Assembly (NCBI RefSeq): GCF_031453615.1
Contig: NZ_JAVIZT010000001.1
Span: forward strand, 310,001 to 374,000
From: Microbacterium sp. SORGH_AS_0428
Lineage (GTDB): Bacteria > Actinomycetota > Actinomycetes > Actinomycetales > Microbacteriaceae
DNA: 64,000 nt
Direction of reading: 5' to 3'
In this document: positions 20,397 through 34,601 of the stretch, one piece after another
How positions within the stretch are numbered: position 1 is the stretch's first letter
Layout of the letters: each line of letters opens with the position of its first letter
Notes under the pieces: model-generated
The model's input: only the letters and a program-made list of their open reading frames with translations
Database searches by the model: none
What the model was told of the DNA's origin: nothing
Program-made: the position numbers and the translations under genes

Positions 20397-20400
<4 letters not shown>
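19540..20400 (-). CDS. pyrF: Orotidine 5'-phosphate decarboxylase (type 2)
   Basis: PyrF decarboxylates OMP to UMP, the last step of pyrimidine synthesis. The 286-residue length and the motif [11 protein letters not shown] (Lys98, Asp101) place it in the longer type 2 subfamily found in mycobacteria. The N-terminal CVGIDPH substrate loop is intact. The GTG start overlaps the carB stop (GTGA) and the C-terminus overlaps the mIHF-gmk start by eight bases, so it is coupled on both sides. pyrD and pyrE are not in this window. Confidence 0.96.
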
Positions 20401-23683
<3,283 letters not shown>

Positions 23684-23684
<1 letters not shown>

Positions 23685-24838
23685 TACTTGGTGTCCTTCT
23701 TGCTCTGCTCGGCGATGACCATGTCCCGGAACCGGTCGAAGAGGTAGTTCGCGTCGTGCGGGCCGGCGGCGGCCTCCGGGTGGTACTGCACGCTGAACGC
23801 GGGGATGTCGAGGGCGCGCAAGCCCTCGACGACCTGGTCGTTGAGGCCGACGTGGCTGACCTCGACGCGGCCGTAGCCGTTGGGGCTGTCACTCACGCCG
23901 TCCAGCGGCGCGTCCACGGCGAAACCGTGGTTGTGCGCGGTGATCTCCACGCGCCCGGTCGTGCGGTCCATGACGGGCTGGTTGATGCCGCGGTGACCGA
24001 AGGGCAGCTTGTACGTGCCGTAGCCCAATGCGCGTCCCAGCAGCTGGTTGCCGAAGCAGATGCCGAAGAACGGCAGGCGGTCATCGAGGACCGCGCGCAG
24101 CAGCTCCACGTGATCGGCGGACGCCGCCGGGTCACCGGGACCGTTGGAGTAGAACACCGCGACGGGATCGATCGCACGGATCTCCTCGATCGTGGCCGTC
24201 TGCGGCAGCACGTGCACGTCGAATCCACGAGCGGCGAGGTTGTCGATCGTCGCCTTCTTGACACCGAGGTCCAGCACGGCGAGGTTGCCGACGCGCTCCG
24301 CGGTCGCGGGGGTGATCTCGGTCTCGACCACGGAGACGGATGCGGACAGGTTCTGCCCCGCCATCGCCGGCGCCTCGCGCACGATGCGAAGCTGCTCCTC
24401 GGGCTCGATCGCGGCGGCGTCGCCCGAGAAGATCCCGCCGCGCATGCTGCCGGCGGAGCGGATGTGGCGCGTCACGGCACGGGTGTCGATCCCGCTGATG
24501 CCGACGATGCCGTCGTTCGTCAGCGCGTCGTCGAGCGACTCGTCGGCACGCCAGTTGGAGACGACCCGCGAGGGGTCGCGCACGATGTACCCGGCGACCC
24601 AGATGCGCCGCGACTCGGGGTCCTCGTCGTTGACACCGGTGTTGCCGATGTGCGGCGCGGTCTGCAGGACGATCTGTCCCGCGTAGGAGGGGTCGGTGAG
24701 GGTCTCCTGGTAGCCGGTCATGCCGGTGGCGAAGACGACCTCGCCGACAGTGGTGCCGGTGGCGCCGTAGGCGCGGCCGGTGTGGCGTGTGCCGTCCTCG
24801 AGGACGAGGACGGCCGGTCCGGTGCGGAAGAGAGTCAT
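23684..24838 (-). CDS. carA: Carbamoyl-phosphate synthase small (glutaminase) subunit
   Basis: CarA hydrolyses glutamine and passes ammonia to CarB. The 384-residue protein has the CPSase small-chain domain at the N-terminus ([24 protein letters not shown]) and a class I glutaminase domain with the nucleophile in [12 protein letters not shown] and the His-Glu pair in [13 protein letters not shown] start it at the ATG at 24838, which overlaps the previous stop (ATGA) and matches the family N-terminus, rather than using the longer upstream reading of the same frame. Confidence 0.97.
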
Positions 24839-25347
24839 ACGTCGGTTCCCGTCGAGGTGGGGTGGGGCAGGATCGCGTCGAGGGCGGCGGCGACCGCGCG
24901 TGCCGAGGCGTCCTGCGGGCGGAAGTAGGAGTCGACGAGCAGCTCGTCGTCGATGCGCCAGGTGAGGCGTGCGAGCCCGTCGCGCTCGACCACACGGTCG
25001 ATCGTGACGGTGGCCTGCTGCGCGGACACGAGTCGCGTTCTGTCGATGAACACCGGCTCGCCGCCGTGGGCAAGCAGTGCCACGCCGGCGTCGGTGATCA
25101 GGAGGTCGGCCTTGGCGCGGAATCCGAGTCCTCGAACGGCGAGGCGTTCCAGGGCGGTGTCGTGCGCGGTCGTCGCCACGTACAGGCCCGCGAAGCGTGC
25201 GAGCACGTCCGCATCGGCGGGCGGCGATCCGAGCGGCGCGGCAAGGCCGCTGTCTCGTCGGACGCGCCGCAGCCAGCCCCAGAGCATGAGGCCTATGAGC
25301 AGCAGAGCCACGGCGAGCATGACCAGCAGCGCGCCCTCCCGGCTCAT
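24835..25347 (-). CDS. Conserved membrane protein between pyrC and carA (PH-like)
   Basis: This 170-residue protein has one N-terminal membrane helix (about residues 6-24, followed by RRVRR on the inside) and a soluble domain with two predicted beta-rich parts containing [15 protein letters not shown]. By position and shape it corresponds to M. tuberculosis Rv1382, between pyrC and carA, described as a PH-like or membrane/export protein of unknown function. It overlaps both neighbours by four bases and is thus embedded in the pyr operon. Co-expression with pyrimidine synthesis is certain; a role in it is not. Confidence 0.85.
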
Positions 25348-26654
25348 GCGCGCACCTCCGCCGCATCCACCACGACGCCGTCACGCACCGTCGCCACGCC
25401 GGCGCGGAACGTCCAGCGCGTCGAACCCGGCAGCTCACGCCCGAGGTAGGGCGAGTTGGTGCTGCGGCCACGGAGGTCGTCGACGGCGAACGTCGCGCGC
25501 ACACCGTCGTCGTACAGAGCCAGATGAGCCGGCTCGCCCACGGCGAGCGGACGGCCGTGTCCCTGCAGGCGGCCGATCGCGGCCGGTGCACTGCTCATGA
25601 CGCGCGCGACGTCCGGCCAGTCGAGCAGACCCGTCTCGACCATGGCGTGGTGCACGACGCGCAGGGCGCTCTCGAGTCCGACCATGCCGTTGGCCGCAGC
25701 CTGCCACTCGCAGGCCTTCGCCTCGGCGGGATGCGGTGCGTGATCGGTCGCGACGATGTCGATCGTGCCGTCCGCGAGGCCCTCCCGGACCGCCTGCACG
25801 TCCTCGTCCCGCCGCAACGGCGGGTTCACCTTGAACCGCGCGTCGTACCCGCGAACGAGTTCTTCGGTCAACAGCAGGTGGTGCGGGGTGACCTCTGCGG
25901 TCACCGTGATGCCCCGCTTCTTCGCCCAGCGGATGATGTCAACGCTGCCGGCTGTGGAGAGGTGGCAGACGTGCAGACGCGAGCCGACGTGCTCCGCGAG
26001 CAGGACATCGCGGGCGATGATCGACTCCTCGGCGACCGCCGGCCACCCGGTGAGCCCCAGCTCGGCGGACACGGCGCCCTCGTTCATCTGGGCGCCCTCG
26101 GTCAGCCGCGGGTCCTGCGCGTGCTGGGCGATCACGCCGTCGAACGCCTTCACGTACTCGAGGGCGCGACGCATGATGAGCGGATCGAAGACGCAGAAGC
26201 CGTCGTCGCTGAACACGCGCACGCGCGCCCGGGAATGGGCCATCGCGCCCAGCTCCGCCAGCCGCTCGCCCTTCTGACCGACCGTGACCGCTCCGATGGG
26301 CTGGACGTCGACGAAGCCCGCGGCCTCACCGAGCGCGAGCTCCTGTTCGACGACCCCGGCCGTGTCGGCGACGGGCGATGTGTTCGGCATGGCGAACAGC
26401 GCCGTGTACCCGCCGGCGGCGCCCGCCCTGGAGCCGGTGAGGATGGTCTCCGATGCCTCGTAGCCGGGTTCCCGGAGATGCGTGTGCAGATCCACCAGGC
26501 CGGGAAGTGCGACCAGACCGTCGGCGTCGATGACCTCGGCCCCGCTTCGGCTGAGTCCGCTGCCCATCTCCTGGATCAGGCCGTCCGCGACGACGAGATC
26601 GACCGCGGCGGCGCCGACCGGCCGCACACCGCGGATCACGTACGTTCCGCTCAT
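25344..26654 (-). CDS. pyrC: Dihydroorotase
   Basis: PyrC cyclises carbamoyl aspartate to dihydroorotate. The 436-residue amidohydrolase has the metal ligands His57 and His59 in [10 protein letters not shown], further ligands in HVCHLSTAG and VTPHH, and the catalytic aspartate in IVATDHAPH. This is the class I/long type that usually pairs with PyrB in other bacteria. Overlaps with pyrB upstream and the membrane gene downstream (four bases each) indicate coupled translation. Confidence 0.97.
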
Positions 26655-27619
26655 GACGCACCTTCTTTCTCGGAGGCGGGGCGTTCGCCCGCAAGCAGCA
26701 GGTACAGCACGGCCATCCGCACGGATACGCCGTTGGTGACCTGCTCGAGCACCGTGGATCGCGGCGAATCCGCCGCCGCAGCGGAGATCTCCAGCCCGCG
26801 GTTCATCGGCCCAGGGTGCATGACAATGCTATCGGCCGGCAGCGCGTCGAGACGCTCGCCGTCCAAGCCCCAGGCTCTCGCGTACTCGCGCTCGGTCGGG
26901 AAGTACGCCGCGTTCATCCGCTCGAGCTGGATACGCAGCATCATGAGCGCGTCCGGGCCCGCGGCGATGGCACGGTCGAGGTCGTACTCGATCGACGCGG
27001 GCCACGCCGACACGTCCTGCGGGATGAGGGTGGGCGGCCCGACGAGAGTGATCCGCGCTCCCAGGGTGTGCAGCAGCCACACGTTGGAGCGCGCCACGCG
27101 CGAATGCAGGATGTCGCCGACGATCGTGACGGACACTCCCGAGAGGTCGCGCCCCCGGCTGTCGGCACCGAACAGGCGCTTGCGCAGCGTGAACGCGTCC
27201 AGCAGAGCCTGGGTGGGGTGCTCGTGCGTGCCGTCGCCGGCGTTGACCACGCCGGCGGTGATCCAGCCGCTCGTGGCGAGTGTCCGAGGAGCCCCGGAGG
27301 CGCCGTGTCGGATGACGACCGCATCCGCGCCCATGGCCTGCAGCGTCTGGGCGGTGTCCTGCAGGGACTCCCCCTTCGACACGCTCGAGCCCTTGGCCGA
27401 GAAGTTGATGACGTCGGCGGACAGGCGCTTGGCCGCCGCCTCGAAGGAGATCCGGGTGCGGGTCGAGTCCTCGAAGAAGAGGTTCACCACCGTCTTGCCG
27501 CGCAGAGTCGGCAGCTTCTTGATCTCGCGCTGCTGCGTGTCCGCCATGTCTTCGGCGACGTCGAGGATGCGCAGGGCCTGCTCACGGTCGAGCGTGCGGG
27601 TGTCCAGGAGGTTCCTCAT
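26651..27619 (-). CDS. pyrB: Aspartate carbamoyltransferase catalytic subunit
   Basis: PyrB condenses carbamoyl phosphate with aspartate, the committed step of pyrimidine synthesis. The 322-residue protein has the carbamoyl-phosphate loop FFEDSTRTR, the KGESLQDT loop, and [12 protein letters not shown]. No regulatory pyrI gene is present; control is expected through PyrR at the mRNA. ATGA overlaps join it to pyrR and pyrC. Confidence 0.98.
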
Positions 27620-28146
27620 GACTCGATCGTCACCTCCTCGACGCCGTCGGTCTCGGCGAGGCGGACGTTGACGCGCTCGTCGCGCGCGCTCGGAAGGTTC
27701 TTGCCGACGAAGTCCGGGCGGATCGGAAGCTCGCGATGGCCTCGATCGATCAACGCCGCCAACCGCACCGCCGCGGGGCGTCCGATGTCCTGCAGTGCGT
27801 CGAGAGCGGCCCGGATGCTCCGACCGGAGAAGAGCACGTCGTCGACGAGAACCACAGTGCGGTGGTCGATGCCGCCCGCGGGGATCTCGGTGCGATGCGG
27901 CGCACGGGTGGGGTTGCTCGCGAGGTCGTCCCGGTACATCGTGACGTCGAGAGCGCCCACGGGCACCGGTGCTCCGCCGAAATCGGCGACGAGGGCGCCG
28001 ATGCGGCGGGCCAGGGGCACCCCTCTGGTCGGGATGCCGAGGATCACCAGCCCTTCCGGACCGCGGTTGGACTCCAGGATCTCGTGGGAGATCCGAGTCA
28101 GGGCTCTGGCGATGTCGGCCTCATGCAGCACGGTTCGCGTGCTCAT
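27616..28146 (-). CDS. pyrR: Pyrimidine operon RNA-binding regulator / uracil phosphoribosyltransferase
   Basis: PyrR binds a hairpin in the pyr leader RNA when UMP is abundant and lowers expression of the operon. Many members also have weak uracil phosphoribosyltransferase activity. The 176-residue protein has the PRPP motif [18 protein letters not shown], the [10 protein letters not shown] flap and basic residues suited to RNA binding. The ATG at 28146 is chosen because a GGGAG ribosome-binding site lies 6-7 bases upstream and [11 protein letters not shown] is the family start. A PyrR-binding loop lies in its own 50-base leader, so autoregulation of the whole pyr block is likely. Confidence 0.97.
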
Positions 28147-28152
28147 CCGCCG

Positions 28153-28186
28153 CTCCCTTCTCCGCCTCACAGGACGGGGTTAAAGG
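28153..28186 (-). promoter_or_regulatory. PyrR-binding RNA hairpin overlapping the pyrR ribosome-binding site
   Basis: Read on the minus strand, the leader contains GUCCUGUGAGGC (28176-28164). It fits the PyrR recognition loop ARUCCNGNGAGGYU, with the closing A-U pair replaced by C-G. CCG (28177-28175) and CGG (28164-28162) close the loop. CCUU (28186-28183) can pair with AAGG (28159-28156), which is part of the Shine-Dalgarno region. Binding of PyrR would stabilise the structure and block translation, as in mycobacteria. No terminator follows, so translational rather than transcriptional attenuation is inferred. Confidence 0.75.
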
Positions 28187-28270: not shown

Positions 28271-29263
28271 ATGACCAGTTCTTCCGCCCGTCCCGCGCGC
28301 CCATCCGATGCGCCGGCGACGCCGACCCCCACTGCCGCAGCGAGCGGGCGGGCATCCGGCAAGGCGATCCTCCTCGGCGAGCACGCTGTCGTCTACGCAC
28401 GGCCCGCGCTCGCCATTCCGCTCTCCGCCCTTCAGGTGCGAGCCGACGTGCGCCGGTCGAGCGCTCCGAGCCACCTGCACAGCGACCTGTACGACGGACC
28501 CCTCGCCGCAGCACCCGCACGCCTCGGTCCCACGGCCATGGCGGCCGCCGCAGCGCTCGAGGCGGTCGGCGCCGCCGGTGAGTCGATCGATCTCCGTATC
28601 GCGAGCACCCTGCCTGCCGAGCGCGGCGTCGGCTCCTCGGCCGCCGTCGCCGCCGCCGTCGTGCGCGCGGTCGCCGCGGCGTTCGGGACCGTTCTGGATG
28701 CTGCCGCCGAGCACGAGCTGATCCAGCGGGCCGAGCGTGTCGCTCACGTGTCGCCGAGCGGTCTCGACGCGCACGCCGTGCGTGCCGGCGCGCCGATCTG
28801 GTTCGAGGACGGAGCCGTGTCGCCCGTCGCCGTGGCCGCGCCGCTCACATTCGTGATCGCCGACACCGGGGTCGCCGGCCGCACGAGAGAAGCAGTCGCG
28901 AGTGTGCGCGCGCGTCACGATGAAGACCCGCGGGGAACGACGGCCCTCCTCGACGAGTTGGGTGAGCTGACCCGCGACGCCCGCACGCACCTCGCCACCG
29001 GTGATGCCCGGAGCCTGGGCGCCGTCATGGACCGGGGTCACACGGCGCTCGATCGTCTGGGTGTGGGCGACCCGGCACTCGACGAACTCGCCGCCACGGC
29101 GCGCGCACACGGTGCCTGGGGAGCGAAACTTACCGGCGGCGGTCGCGGCGGATGCGTCCTCGTGCTGACCCGAGACGACGAAAGCGCCGCCGACGTCGCC
29201 GGTGCCCTGCGCGCCGCGGGAGCGGCCGCGACCTGGACCACCACGGTGGAGGCGACGACATGA
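28271..29263 (+). CDS. mvk: Mevalonate kinase
   Basis: Mvk phosphorylates mevalonate with ATP, the first kinase step of the mevalonate route to isoprenoids. The 330-residue GHMP kinase has GKAILLGEHAVVY (about 30-42), the ATP loop PAERGVGSSAAVAAA (about 115-129) and the C-terminal GAWGAKLTGGGRGGC. The first 26 residues are a low-complexity Ser/Pro/Ala/Thr lead. The ATG at 28271 is the first plausible start after the -10 element; a GTG at 28261 is out of frame. It opens a six-gene operon with ATGA or GTGA couplings, in the same order as the Streptomyces CL190 mevalonate cluster. Confidence 0.95.
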   Translation: MTSSSARPARPSDAPATPTPTAAASGRASGKAILLGEHAVVYARPALAIPLSALQVRADVRRSSAPSHLHSDLYDGPLAAAPARLGPTAMAAAAALEAVGAAGESIDLRIASTLPAERGVGSSAAVAAAVVRAVAAAFGTVLDAAAEHELIQRAERVAHVSPSGLDAHAVRAGAPIWFEDGAVSPVAVAAPLTFVIADTGVAGRTREAVASVRARHDEDPRGTTALLDELGELTRDARTHLATGDARSLGAVMDRGHTALDRLGVGDPALDELAATARAHGAWGAKLTGGGRGGCVLVLTRDDESAADVAGALRAAGAAATWTTTVEATT

Positions 29264-30228
29264 CCGAGGCACGCGCGATCGCGCATCCGAACATCGCGCT
29301 GGTGAAGTACTGGGGCAAGGCCGACCCGGCGCTCAACCTGCCGGCGACCGGCAGCCTGTCGATGACGCTCGGCGTGTTTCCCACGACCACGACCGTCGTG
29401 GTGGACGACGCGCTGGACACCGACGTGTTCGTGCTCAACGGCCGAGAGCAGTCGGGGGTCCCCGCCGAGCGCACGGCGCGTTTCCTCGACCTCGTGCGCG
29501 GGCTCTCCGGTTCAGCGCTGCGCGCGCGTGTGGAGTCGCACAACACGGTGCCGTCGGCAGCGGGACTCGCGTCCTCCGCGGCCGGCTTCGCCGCACTCGC
29601 CGGTGCCGCCGCATCCGCCTACGGACTGCAGCTGAGCGCGCGGGAGCTCAGCAGACTCGCCCGTCGCGGTTCGGGTTCCGCCGCACGCTCGATCTTCGGC
29701 GGCTTCGCCCTCTGGCACGCCGGCGACGACGAGCAGTCGTACGCCGAACCGCTGCCGGCGCCGGCGGATCTCGCGATGGTCGTGGCGATCGTCGACAGCG
29801 GCGAGAAGCAGGTCTCCAGCCGGGAAGCGATGCGCCGCACGGCGGATACCTCACCTTTCTATCCCGCGTGGATCACCTCCACAGCGGCGACGCTCGAGGA
29901 GGCGCGGCGCGCGTGCGTCGAGGGCGATGTGGCGCAGCTCGGACGTCTGACCGAGAACAACGCCCTTCGGATGCACGCCGTGATCCAGGCCTCGGCACCG
30001 TCCATCCGCTACCTGTCCCCGACGAGCATCGCGCTCTTCGACCGCGTGGCGGCGCTGCGCGACGCGGGCCTGGAATCGTACGCGACAGCGGACGCGGGCC
30101 CGAACGTCGTCGCCCTGTGCCGCGCCGCGGACGCGGAATCCGTCGCGGGCGAGCTCGGCGCGCTCGCCGAGACGGTCGTCGCGCTGCCGGGACCCGGGCT
30201 GGTGGTCGGCGGAAGGTCCGTCGGATGA
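29260..30228 (+). CDS. mvaD: Diphosphomevalonate decarboxylase
   Basis: MvaD converts mevalonate diphosphate to isopentenyl diphosphate with ATP. The 322-residue GHMP protein has the substrate motif HPNIALVKYWGK, the ATP loop NTVPSAAGLASSAAGFAAL, GSGSAARSIFGGF and the C-terminal TADAGPNV containing the catalytic aspartate. The ATG overlaps the mvk stop by four bases, and its own stop overlaps the pmk ATG. It is 322 residues long, a normal size, and shows no defect. Confidence 0.96.
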   Translation: MTEARAIAHPNIALVKYWGKADPALNLPATGSLSMTLGVFPTTTTVVVDDALDTDVFVLNGREQSGVPAERTARFLDLVRGLSGSALRARVESHNTVPSAAGLASSAAGFAALAGAAASAYGLQLSARELSRLARRGSGSAARSIFGGFALWHAGDDEQSYAEPLPAPADLAMVVAIVDSGEKQVSSREAMRRTADTSPFYPAWITSTAATLEEARRACVEGDVAQLGRLTENNALRMHAVIQASAPSIRYLSPTSIALFDRVAALRDAGLESYATADAGPNVVALCRAADAESVAGELGALAETVVALPGPGLVVGGRSVG

Positions 30229-31317
30229 CCGCGCCGATCGTCGTCCGCGCGCCGGGCAAGCTCTTCATCGCGGGCGAGTACGCGGTCGTGACTCCCGGCG
30301 AGCCCGCCGTGCTCGTCGCCGTCGATCGCTACCTGACGGTCCGACTCACGCCCAGTGCGGACTCCGGGAGCGTTCATTCGCCCGAGTTCGGCCGCACTCC
30401 CCTGGTGTGGGGCCGGGCGGGTGATGGGCTCACGATCGATGCCGAGCATCATCCCTACGAGTACGTGCTCGCCGCCATCACCCTCGCCGAGCGCCTGCGT
30501 TCCCGAGCGCGGTCTGCCGGCGCGGTACTACGACCTGCGCATCGACAGCGGACTCGACGACGCGTCCGGCCGGAAGTTCGGTCTCGGATCGTCCGCGGCG
30601 GTCACGATCGCGACGATCCGCGCGATCGACGAGTTCTACGGGTTCGCGCTCTCCCGACGCGATGTGTACCGCCTGGCCCTGCTGGCCACCATCCGTGTCG
30701 CTCCCCAGGCTTCCGGGGGCGACCTGGCGGCCAGCGCGTTCGGCGGCTGGATCTCCTATCGCTCGCCCGATCGCGAAGTGCTTCGAGCATCACTCGACGC
30801 GGAGGCGTCGGTCGCCGATCTGCTGGCGTCGCGCGGGTGGGATTCGCTGGACATCGCCCGCCTCGCGCCGCCCGCGTCCCTCCGCTTCCTCGTCGGCTGG
30901 ACCGGTCGACCGGCATCCACCGAGCGGCTCGTCGACGCGGTGCGAGACGGCTCCGGCGCCATGGACTACCCGGCGTTCCTGCTCGACTCCCGCGCGTGCG
31001 TGACGGACCTGGCGCGAGCCCTGGACGACGCCGACGACACCGCCACACTCGACGCCGTCCGCCGGGCGCGGCGGTTGCTGCGCCGCCTCGGGCGAAGCGC
31101 CGGTGTCGCCATCGAGACGGATGCGCTCGCCGCGCTCTGCGACACGGCGGAAGCGGCCGGGGCGGCGGCGAAGTCCTCGGGCGCCGGCGGCGGCGACTGC
31201 GGCATCGTGCTGGCACCGGAGGACGCCGACATCGCCGGCATGCTCCGCGACTGGGAGGAACGCGACATCCGGCGACTGACACTGTCGGTGTCCCCCGCAG
31301 AGGGAGGAGCGCCGTGA
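30225..31317 (+). pseudogene. pmk: Phosphomevalonate kinase, interrupted by an apparent +1 frameshift
   Basis: Pmk phosphorylates phosphomevalonate to the diphosphate, the MvaD substrate. Two reading frames together encode a normal GHMP-type kinase of about 363 residues. The first frame, from the ATG at 30225, gives VRAPGKLFIAGEYAVV through TLAERLRS. After about 30503 the homology continues in the next frame with ERGLPARYYDLRIDSGL, KFGLGSSAAVTIA and SSGAGGGDCGI, ending at the TGA at 31315-31317. Removing one C from the CCC at 30502-30504 restores a single frame. The rest of the gene has no stops and keeps the ATP-binding loops. It could be a sequencing indel, a recent mutation or recoding at TCC-CGA. 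Start and stop both overlap their neighbours (ATGA, GTGA). Confidence 0.85.
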
Positions 31318-32402
31318 GCGCCGCGGACCGCAAGGACGATCACGTGCGGCTCGCCGCCGCTCAGCATCCACTCGTCGCCGGCAACGGCTTCGACGACGTC
31401 CGCTTCCTGCACCACGCCCTCTCCGGCATCGATGCCGCCGAGGTGGCGCTCGACACCGAGGTGGCAGGGCGGCACTGGTCCGCGCCGTTCTACATCAACG
31501 CGATGACCGGCGGCAGCGCCCGCACGGGCGAGATCAACCGCGCGCTCGCCCGCGCCGCCGCGGCAGCGCGTGTCCCGATCGCTTCGGGCTCGATGAGCGT
31601 CGCACTCGACGATGCGGATGCGGCGCCGACGTTCCGCGTGCTGCGCGAGGAGAACCCGGACGGCCTCCTGTTCGCCAACATCGGCATCGAGCGCTCAGCG
31701 GATGACGCCCGTCGCGCGGTCGAGCTCATCGACGCCGACGCCCTGCAGATCCACGTGAACGCCGTGCAGGAGATCGTGATGCCGGAGGGTGGACGCTCCT
31801 TCGGCCACTGGGTCGCCTCTCTGGAGCGCATCGTCGCAGCCGTCGACGTCCCCGTCGTCGTCAAGGAGGTCGGGTTCGGTCTCAGTCGACGCACCCTGTC
31901 CGTCCTCGGTGAGATCGGGGTCTCCGCCGCCGACGTCGCCGGCCGCGGAGGAACCGACTTCGTGCAGATCGAGAACGCGCGCCGAGCCGGTGCCGACTTC
32001 GGCTACCTGGCCGGATGGGGACAGAGCGCCGTCGAGTGTCTGCTCGACGCCCCCTCGGACGCGCCTCCGCTGCTCGCCTCCGGAGGAGTGCGCACGCCTC
32101 TCGACATCGTCAGAGGCCTCGCCCTCGGCGCACGAGCCGTCGGTGTATCCGGCACCTTCCTGCGGATCGTCCTCGACGGGGGCTCGGATGCCCTGTCGGT
32201 GGCGCTCGAGGCATGGAAGACCCAGCTCCGAGCCCTCCTGACCGTCCTCGGTGCGCGCACGAGTGCGGACCTGGTCTGGACGGATCTGATCATCGGCGGC
32301 GAGACCGCCGACTTCGCGCGAGCACGCGCGATCGACATCACCTCGCTGGCGCATCGATCCGATGCGCTCAGCGCACCTGGAAGGAGCCGGAATGACCGGT
32401 GA
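31314..32402 (+). CDS. fni: Type 2 isopentenyl-diphosphate delta-isomerase
   Basis: Fni interconverts isopentenyl and dimethylallyl diphosphate using reduced FMN, unlike the metal-dependent type 1 enzyme. The 362-residue TIM barrel starts with RKDDHVRLA and shows NAMTGGS, LQIHVNAVQEIVMPEG (including the catalytic glutamine region), VVKEVGFG, RGGTDF and the FMN-phosphate motif ASGGVRTPLD. The GTG has a strong GGGAGGAG ribosome-binding site and overlaps the pmk stop by four bases. Its frame is the same as that of the pmk N-terminal part, and no stop lies between them. Type 2 isomerase fits the CL190-like gene order. Confidence 0.95.
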   Translation: MSAADRKDDHVRLAAAQHPLVAGNGFDDVRFLHHALSGIDAAEVALDTEVAGRHWSAPFYINAMTGGSARTGEINRALARAAAAARVPIASGSMSVALDDADAAPTFRVLREENPDGLLFANIGIERSADDARRAVELIDADALQIHVNAVQEIVMPEGGRSFGHWVASLERIVAAVDVPVVVKEVGFGLSRRTLSVLGEIGVSAADVAGRGGTDFVQIENARRAGADFGYLAGWGQSAVECLLDAPSDAPPLLASGGVRTPLDIVRGLALGARAVGVSGTFLRIVLDGGSDALSVALEAWKTQLRALLTVLGARTSADLVWTDLIIGGETADFARARAIDITSLAHRSDALSAPGRSRNDR

Positions 32403-33438
32403 GTTCACTCCCCTACCCACCCGCTGGGTCGGTCCGCTACGTCTGAGCGGCGACGTCGTGGGAGAGCAGGAGGTTCCCCTCGCCACCTACGAGAGTCCCC
32501 TCTGGCCCTCCGTCGGGCGCGGTGCGCGCATCTCGCGCCTGATCGACGACGGCATCCGGGTGACGGTCGTGGACGAGCGGATGACGCGCTCCTCGCTGTT
32601 CACCGCCGTCGACGCCGCGACCGCCGTCCGCGCCGGACGCGACATCCGAGGCCGCTTCGCTGAGCTGGCAGCCACTGTGGCCGCCCAGAGCCGGCACGCC
32701 CGGCTGCTCGATGTCGACACCGAAGTCGTCGGCAACCTGCTCTTCGTGCGCTTCGCTCTGTCGACCGGCGATGCGTCGGGGCACAACATGGTGACGCTGG
32801 CTGCAGAGTCGCTCATGACGCAGATCCTGCAGTGGCATCCCGAGCTGGAGTACGGATCGATCTCCGGCAACTACTGCTCCGACAAGAAGGCGACCGCCGT
32901 CAACGGCATCCTCGGCCGGGGTCGCAATGTCGTCGCCGACATCCTCATCCCGGCAGAGCTCGTCCAGACGCAGCTACGCTCCACCGCGGCGCGGATCGTC
33001 GAGCTGAACACACGCAAGAACCTCGTCGGCTCCACGATCGCGGGAGCGCTGCGCTCGGCGAACGCGCACTACGCGAACATGCTGCTCGCGATCTTCCTCG
33101 CGACCGGTCAGGACGCGGCCAACATCGTCGAGGGCTCGCAGGGGATCACGTGGGCGGAGGTCCGCGGCGACGGCGACCTGTACTTCTCCTGCACGCTGCC
33201 CACGCTCATCGTGGGCACGGTCGGCAACGGCAAGGACCTCCCGCAGGTCGAGGAGGCGCTCACCCGCCTCGGATGCCGCGAGGAGCGCGAGTCGGGCGAG
33301 AACGCGCGGCGCCTGGCCGCCCTCGTGGCGGCGACCGTGCTCTGCGGCGAGCTCTCGCTGCTGGCCGCCCAGACCAACCCCGGAGAACTCATGACCTCCC
33401 ACCTCCAGCTGGAGCGCAACGGAAAGGCCACGCGATGA
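32392..33438 (+). CDS. hmgR: Hydroxymethylglutaryl-CoA reductase, class I (NADPH)
   Basis: HmgR reduces HMG-CoA to mevalonate in the step that commits carbon to isoprenoids. The 348-residue soluble protein has class I features: FALSTGDASGHNMVTLAAE, GNYCSDKKATAVNGI with the catalytic lysine, GQDAANIVEGSQGITWAE, and a C-terminal SHLQLERNGK containing the catalytic histidine. Class I is the type in eukaryotes, archaea and Streptomyces mevalonate clusters. The ATG has an AAGGAG site and overlaps fni by 11 bases. No membrane anchor is present. Confidence 0.95.
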   Translation: MTGEFTPLPTRWVGPLRLSGDVVGEQEVPLATYESPLWPSVGRGARISRLIDDGIRVTVVDERMTRSSLFTAVDAATAVRAGRDIRGRFAELAATVAAQSRHARLLDVDTEVVGNLLFVRFALSTGDASGHNMVTLAAESLMTQILQWHPELEYGSISGNYCSDKKATAVNGILGRGRNVVADILIPAELVQTQLRSTAARIVELNTRKNLVGSTIAGALRSANAHYANMLLAIFLATGQDAANIVEGSQGITWAEVRGDGDLYFSCTLPTLIVGTVGNGKDLPQVEEALTRLGCREERESGENARRLAALVAATVLCGELSLLAAQTNPGELMTSHLQLERNGKATR

Positions 33439-34601
33439 CCGCGCCCCTGATCGGTATCCACGACCTGGCGGTCGCCACCGCCGGCCACGTGCTGGAACTC
33501 GACGACCTCGCGGCGGCGACGGGCGTCGATCCGGGTAAGTTCCACATCGGGCTCGGCCAGGACCAGATGAGCGTTCCCGGCCCGGACGAGGACATCGTCA
33601 CGATGGGCGCGAGCGCGGCCCGGCGCATCATCGACCGGCACGGCGTCGACGGTATCCGCACGGTCTTCTTCGCGACCGAGTCCGGCGTCGACCAGTCCAA
33701 GTCGGCCGGCGTCTGGGTGCACGACCTGCTGGGTCTGCCCTCCACGAGCCGGGTCATCGAACTCAAGCAGGCCTGCTACTCCGCGACCGCCGCACTGCAG
33801 GCGGCTGCGGGGCTCGTCGCGCGCGAGCCAGGATCGAAGGTCCTCGTCATCGCGAGCGACATCGCGCGCTACGAGCTGGACTCCGCCGCCGAGCCGACAC
33901 AGGGCGCCGGAGCGGTCGCGATGCTGGTCACCGCGAATCCGGCGCTGCTGAGCATCGAGCCGGCAACCGGACTGCACACCGCCCACGTCGACGACTTCTG
34001 GCGCCCCAACGACAGCGTGACCGCCGTCGTCGACGGCAAGCTGTCCATCGACGCGTACCTCGACGGCTTCATCGGAGCGTGGGACGACTACCGCTCCCAT
34101 GGCGGGGTGGACGTCGATGAGATCGACGTCTTCACACACCACCAGCCCTTCACGCGGATGGCGGCCAAGGCGCATCGCCGTCTCGCCGAGCACCTGGGTA
34201 CGGAGCTTGCGGAGGACCGCTACCTGCGCTCCACCCTCTACAACCGGCGCATCGGCAACTCGTACACGGCGTCGCTGTACTTCGGGCTCGCCGCTCTGCT
34301 CGATGGAGACGACGACCTCAGCGGCAAGCGTGTGGGGATGTTCAGCTACGGCTCCGGCAGCGTCAGCGAGTTCTTCGCCGGCGTCGTGCAGCCCGGTTAC
34401 CGCGAGCACACCCGGGCCGACGAGACCGCGAAGCTGCTCGCTGCCCGTACGCGTGTGGACGTGCCCGCGTACCGTGCGCTGCACGCGGCGGCCCACCTCG
34501 GAAGTCGGCAGGACGTGACCGTACCGGCACAGTCCCCGTGGCCGTACCACTTCGCCGGCGTGCGGGGGCGCGCCCGCCAGTACTCCGCCGACCAGGCCTG
34601 A
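33435..34601 (+). CDS. hmgS: Hydroxymethylglutaryl-CoA synthase
   Basis: HmgS condenses acetyl-CoA and acetoacetyl-CoA to HMG-CoA. The 388-residue thiolase-fold enzyme has the catalytic triad of the family: Glu82 in FATESGVDQSK, Cys114 in ELKQACYSATAAL and a histidine at 235/236 in FTHHQPF. It closes the mevalonate operon and overlaps hmgR by four bases. A large stem-loop follows its stop and separates it from the convergent MBL-Rieske gene. A dedicated acetoacetyl-CoA synthase or thiolase gene is not in the window. Confidence 0.95.
   Translation: MTAPLIGIHDLAVATAGHVLELDDLAAATGVDPGKFHIGLGQDQMSVPGPDEDIVTMGASAARRIIDRHGVDGIRTVFFATESGVDQSKSAGVWVHDLLGLPSTSRVIELKQACYSATAALQAAAGLVAREPGSKVLVIASDIARYELDSAAEPTQGAGAVAMLVTANPALLSIEPATGLHTAHVDDFWRPNDSVTAVVDGKLSIDAYLDGFIGAWDDYRSHGGVDVDEIDVFTHHQPFTRMAAKAHRRLAEHLGTELAEDRYLRSTLYNRRIGNSYTASLYFGLAALLDGDDDLSGKRVGMFSYGSGSVSEFFAGVVQPGYREHTRADETAKLLAARTRVDVPAYRALHAAAHLGSRQDVTVPAQSPWPYHFAGVRGRARQYSADQA

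Follow-up and report, generated by a model that had tools for sequence, protein, structure and literature searches.

Background

The mevalonate operon of Microbacterium sp. SORGH_AS_0428 contains a gene for phosphomevalonate kinase, pmk, whose two parts lie in different reading frames. Is this a true and very recent knockout of the gene? Is it a site at which the ribosome is recoded to take a +1 step? Or does the assembly contain a base that the organism does not have? An earlier note, made from the letters of this DNA, had set these three options side by side; in the present analysis the assembly indel is strongly favoured, recoding is contradicted by the other Pmk-bearing genomes, and a knockout retains a small share of the probability. 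The answer guards against mistaking the split gene for a mevalonate knockout or for a new site of recoding.

The host genome, G000, is a single contig of 3,300,177 bases and is 99.86% complete. The window, which is the whole stretch of DNA that was analysed, has 64,000 nucleotides and corresponds to G000:C1:310001-374000. Window positions are used here for the operon and contig positions elsewhere.

One Pmk in two frames within the mevalonate operon

Six mevalonate genes, mvk, mvaD, pmk, idi, mvaA and mvaS, are arranged head to tail between 28271 and 34601. The features are as follows:

28271..29263, + strand: mvk, mevalonate kinase, intact, start codon uncertain (TIGR00549, 228 bits, above cut-off; start from our own gene caller)
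29260..30228, + strand: mvaD, diphosphomevalonate decarboxylase, intact, overlaps the pmk start (TIGR01240, 293.7 bits)
30225..30503, + strand: pmk N-terminal piece, 93 codons, frame of the ATG (TIGR01220 1-90, 86 bits)
30502..30504, + strand: CCC, the frame-change point (one base fewer in relatives)
30505..31317, + strand: pmk C-terminal piece, 270 codons and stop (TIGR01220 98-354, 276 bits)
30225..32402, + strand: open frame as written, Pmk N-terminus/out-of-frame/idi, 725 residues (open reading frame and profile matches)
31314..32402, + strand: idi, type 2 isopentenyl-diphosphate isomerase, intact (TIGR02151, 360.7 bits)
32392..33438, + strand: mvaA, HMG-CoA reductase, intact (TIGR00533, 288 bits; start from our own gene caller)
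33435..34601, + strand: mvaS, HMG-CoA synthase, intact (TIGR01835, 449.7 bits)

The frame of the ATG at 30225 changes at 30502-30504, and the gene ends with the TGA at 31315-31317. Bases 30500-30507, the site of the change, are TTCCCGAG; the frame of the ATG reads CGT TCC CGA GCG here, and the frame ending in the TGA has GAG at 30505. In a profile search the N-terminal piece (30225-30503) matched positions 1-90 of TIGR01220 and the C-terminal piece (30505-31314) positions 98-354, which in combination span this model of 358 positions. Since the first positions are found in one frame and the rest in the other, the two pieces are one Pmk split over two frames, as the earlier note had read it. Only the C-terminal piece passes the TIGR01220 cut-off of 165.7, and pmk as written has no full-length match above this cut-off in a single frame. 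The site of the frame change lacks a stop codon and, by eye, has no run longer than CCC. Past the site the shifted frame stays open, without a stop, to the end of idi, and the written product of 725 residues is comprised of the Pmk N-terminus, about 270 out-of-frame codons and a complete Idi in frame.

The remainder of the operon had been described as intact with its couplings around pmk preserved, and this holds. The NCBIfam cut-offs are passed by mvk, mvaD, idi and mvaS, and mvaA, which is 99% identical to the copy in the relative G136, matches its model over nearly the whole length at a score below the cut-off of 441.8. Overlaps of 4 bases join mvaD to pmk (30225-30228) and pmk to idi (31314-31317). 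The operon is adjoined, in divergent orientation, by a run of genes resembling those of pyrimidine biosynthesis (window 20397-28170), in which carB was identified by profile and the remaining genes by eye only.

The pmk site in relatives

At the pmk site G136 (92% DNA identity), G035 (86%) and L037 are each one base shorter, which bears out the extra base that the earlier note had placed at 30502-30504. In the alignment L011, L013, L038 and L039 also have one base fewer, and L018 and L020 are one base shorter too, their gap lying a few bases off the site; the alignment of L021 was too poor to judge the site, and in this search no other locus aligned there.

Pmk is present in 16 of the 198 genomes of a genus sample, and a frame change at this site was found in 0 of the 15 others that carry it. 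In 13 of these 15 a single frame covers 350 or more of the 358 positions, and in G098 Pmk is found as two pieces in the same frame. In G091, a genome that is 68% complete, the Pmk (G091:C1:2663972-2665024) contains one internal TGA and has a piece in a second frame, elsewhere in the gene than the present site. Searching genome contigs with the C-terminal piece returned three relatives, and a plasmid collection gave a single weak match, to mvaD. A protein search gave 1899 matches, and among the best 120 of them 118 have a length of 350-389 residues. The top match has 363 residues and shares 91% identity with the C-terminal piece. Each of these matches represents a cluster made at 90% (27 sequences in the case of P0001), in which a copy from the same species could hide.

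These comparisons bear directly upon +1 recoding, in which the ribosome would slip at TCC C/CGA and full-length Pmk would be made from the sequence as written. In its favour, TCC and the CGA after it could conceivably act as a slippery pair, no early stop interrupts the shifted frame, and both halves of pmk are constrained. Conservation of the frame change, which had been named as an argument for recoding, is however contradicted by the 15 genomes, and the aligned relatives are without the extra base. The low usage claimed for CGA stands in that it makes up 7.6% of Arg codons in G000 (5.7 per 1000 codons), but it is fourth of the six and not rare, and the site lacks a stop codon. The seven other gene breaks of G000 described below are in different contexts by eye, one being of two bases, and no motif common to all eight is evident by eye. 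In the sections of PMC3711429 drawn on here, programmed frameshifting is marked by a site conserved across a gene cluster or genera, and singletons are attributed to indel mutation or sequencing error. We therefore hold recoding at this site to be very improbable.

Could the run itself be switching, with slippage in the CCC causing reversible phase variation and a mixed population? The inserted base does lengthen a short run. However, by eye the site has no longer run, and three bases are far below the length of the usual slippage tracts; the chance of this explanation is minute.

Constraint on the two pieces of pmk

For the N-terminal piece dN/dS is 0.060 against G136 and 0.052 against G035, and for the C-terminal piece 0.084 and 0.096. 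Both lie within the range of the other operon genes, 0.010 to 0.162. A decaying pmk pseudogene was rejected, as neither piece shows relaxed constraint (dN/dS 0.05-0.10). This constraint would fit an assembly error and a very recent mutation alike, and would not separate the two.

The alternative route to isoprenoids

The earlier note had considered that the organism might lack the MEP pathway, in which case a true knockout would be hard to tolerate. Absence of the pathway was rejected when its genes were located in G000. None of the following five has internal stops (coordinates are the spans of the profile matches):

G000 403904-404737: dxs, open frame, full length
G000 879872-880894: ispG, open frame
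G000 890280-890594: dxr, two pieces, one open frame
G000 3036892-3037707: ispE, open frame
G000 3104981-3105814: ispH, open frame

The premise for intolerance depends on the pathway being absent and is weakened by these genes, but ispF is itself frameshifted as written. Part of an ispD-ispF fusion, it has its profile match divided between two frames, which join at G000 2831515; it is in a single frame in 6/6 relatives searched, and the intact G035 copy of the broken fusion gene matches bifunctional IspD-IspF. As written, each isoprenoid route has one broken gene, pmk in the mevalonate route and the ispF part of ispDF in the MEP route. A living cell cannot have both routes dead, so that one or both of these breaks must be something other than a true null. 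Whether the same assembly simultaneously breaks the alternative route is a cheap test for cases of this kind.

In the genus sample IspH is found in 197 of 198 genomes, compared with 16 for Pmk. From this distribution, the mevalonate pathway appears to be optional and patchy, sitting atop a near-universal MEP pathway. The IspH of G184 is in two pieces, and its best E-value of 3.6e-44 is much weaker than those of almost every other genome, pointing to a broken ispH.

A true and very recent knockout of pmk in the strain, with isoprenoids supplied by MEP and the ispF frameshift as the artefact, gains from these observations. The MEP genes are present, and a null would be tolerable where the mevalonate route is optional; the portion of PMC10663253 consulted likewise has the enzymes of both pathways encoded by a subset of Microbacterium species. 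Yet the knockout would have to be too recent for either piece of pmk to show relaxed constraint, and the pmk insertion is one of eight in the sample, several of them in genes that should be hard to lose. On balance we consider a knockout unlikely.

Split genes elsewhere in the assembly

Two regions of G000 (150001-454000 and 2740001-2940000, together 504 kb) were set against their counterparts in G136 and G035. Coding and intergenic labels are unreliable at broken genes, with three gene-splitting sites of G000 labelled intergenic and some indels labelled coding lying at gene ends; therefore, gene breaks were taken from whole-gene tblastn split lists. Of approximately 359 testable conserved G000 genes, testable being the counted splits and the full-length genes together, 8 are split by small indels that neither G136 nor G035 shares:

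182.5 kb: FMN-binding-domain gene (named from the intact G035 copy)
249.0 and 250.0 kb: two neighbouring FhuB-like permeases (named from the intact G035 copies)
340.5 kb: pmk (TIGR01220)
428.5 kb: sucB (TIGR02927, 762 bits in the G035 copy)
2828.0 kb: PhoR-like histidine kinase (named from the intact G035 copy)
2830.5 kb: carD (protein 100% identical on either side of the break)
2831.5 kb: ispDF (bifunctional IspD-IspF in the intact G035 copy)

Loss of several of these genes would be hard for the cell. In G035 0/347 genes are split (Fisher p = 0.008 against G000), a test that was queried with G000 genes and is not an exact mirror; G136 genes as queries gave 343 at full length.

These counts rest on the following tests. 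Of 485 G136 genes tested against G000, 351 were full length, 12 split, 6 partial and 116 without a good match. Eight of the 12 splits were counted and four were set aside: a frame that fuses mvk to mvaD in G136, a G136 frame of 596 aa at a place where G000 does not differ from G035, the broken dxs frame of G136 itself, and one with a diverged N-terminus. The fusion of the mvk frame with mvaD results from an extra base near the mvk 3' end (G136:C1:3395299-3397092). Testing 438 G000 genes against G035 gave 347 full length, 3 split, 3 partial and 85 without a good match, and none of the three splits, which are frames of G000 itself that are broken or antisense, was counted. Three splits of G136 genes against G035, all of them G136 open frames, were also set aside. 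One of these last three, 3475787-3477199, falls together with a deletion of one base in G035 at an apparent gene boundary and might be a change in G035.

In G136 six genes are split relative to both other genomes, including carB, dxs, pstC and a phosphoglycerate-kinase-like gene, the sole family match of which is to the kinase part of a bifunctional phosphoglycerate kinase / triosephosphate isomerase model. Left out of these six were an antisense frame over sucB and a split at 2581264 without a G035 counterpart. Frame-breaking insertions in dxs, carB and the phosphoglycerate-kinase-like gene are at G136:C1:3460546, 3389545 and 3292541, respectively. G136 likewise looks error-laden, with a break load similar to that of G000.

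The eight G000 sites cluster, two within 1.0 kb and three within 3.5 kb, with pmk outside the clusters (p = 0.003 for three gaps of at most 2.5 kb between neighbours, a threshold picked once the data had been seen). Error spread uniformly would not produce clusters; uneven or locally low read depth could be their source. Outside the window, at G000:C1:2828011-2831517 (L087, L101), the PhoR-like kinase, CarD and IspD-IspF are each frame-broken within 3.5 kb.

Over the 372 kb aligned three ways, eight breaks correspond to about Q47. If this rate holds throughout, users of G000 for gene presence and absence should expect some 70 breaks.

The kind of indel at the breaks

The eight G000 breaks are all insertions, seven of one base and one, in ispDF, of two, and by eye the inserted base is beside an identical base in 7/8. 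The six breaks of G136 are also all insertions, one of them of two bases. Sorted by hand into gene-splitting and other, the G000-specific small indels fall into 8 insertions and 0 deletions at the breaks and 2 insertions and 8 deletions among the other 10 (p = 0.001), and so the gene-breaking changes in the G000 lineage look unlike its other small indels. Polarised small indels number 10 insertions and 8 deletions in G000, 16 and 5 in G136, and 23 and 13 in G035, the last being the outgroup of the three, with its own indels less well polarised. A looser list of one-base gaps between G000 and G136 (47 insertions, 46 deletions) was left unused, as most were compensated by a neighbour or unpolarised. 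The all-insertion pattern supports assembly error, and is not proof of it because G035, which has no split genes, also leans to insertions. Raw error dominated by insertions occurs with some single-molecule methods.

Might the strain instead truly carry many insertions, tolerated by genome-wide frameshift suppression through, for example, an altered tRNA? If so, pmk, carD and sucB would be translated across their breaks, and the two-base insertion in ispDF would need a further mechanism. We give this explanation next to no credence.

A probable insertion error, the favoured explanation

The extra base at 30502-30504 is very probably a residual insertion error of the G000 assembly. The sequences show that the frame changes within pmk, that the relatives lack this change, that genes split by insertions are in excess in this assembly, and that ispF is broken in parallel. 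Counting against it, the pmk run is only CCC, which is short for a homopolymer error. The true sequence would carry a shorter run at the pmk site, as the reads would be expected to show, and the living organism would most likely have an intact Pmk of about 363 residues, a working mevalonate operon and a working MEP pathway.

Comparison with known systems

Programmed +1 frameshifting as in prfB, going by the sections of PMC3711429 drawn on, resembles pmk in that a +1 step joins two frames of one protein. Unlike frameshifting of the prfB type, the slip in pmk would occur without a stop codon, and no frame change is present in the 15 other genomes with Pmk. An ordinary indel pseudogene is similar in having one pathway gene broken while a second pathway is encoded, but the remainder of pmk is undecayed and its insertion belongs to an excess that also hits core genes.

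A further comparison is with residual long-read indels, which in the excerpts consulted of the papers on Kastor (PMC12007338) and Polypolish (PMC8812927) likewise fragment genes in bacterial assemblies. In the same excerpt on Kastor (PMC12007338), long-read errors are mainly homopolymer indels, with deletions exceeding insertions in the two assemblies compared. In G000 all eight indels are instead insertions and the pmk run is three bases long. The likeness lies in indels of one or two bases that are scattered over the conserved genes of a single-contig assembly and hit genes that the cell should need.
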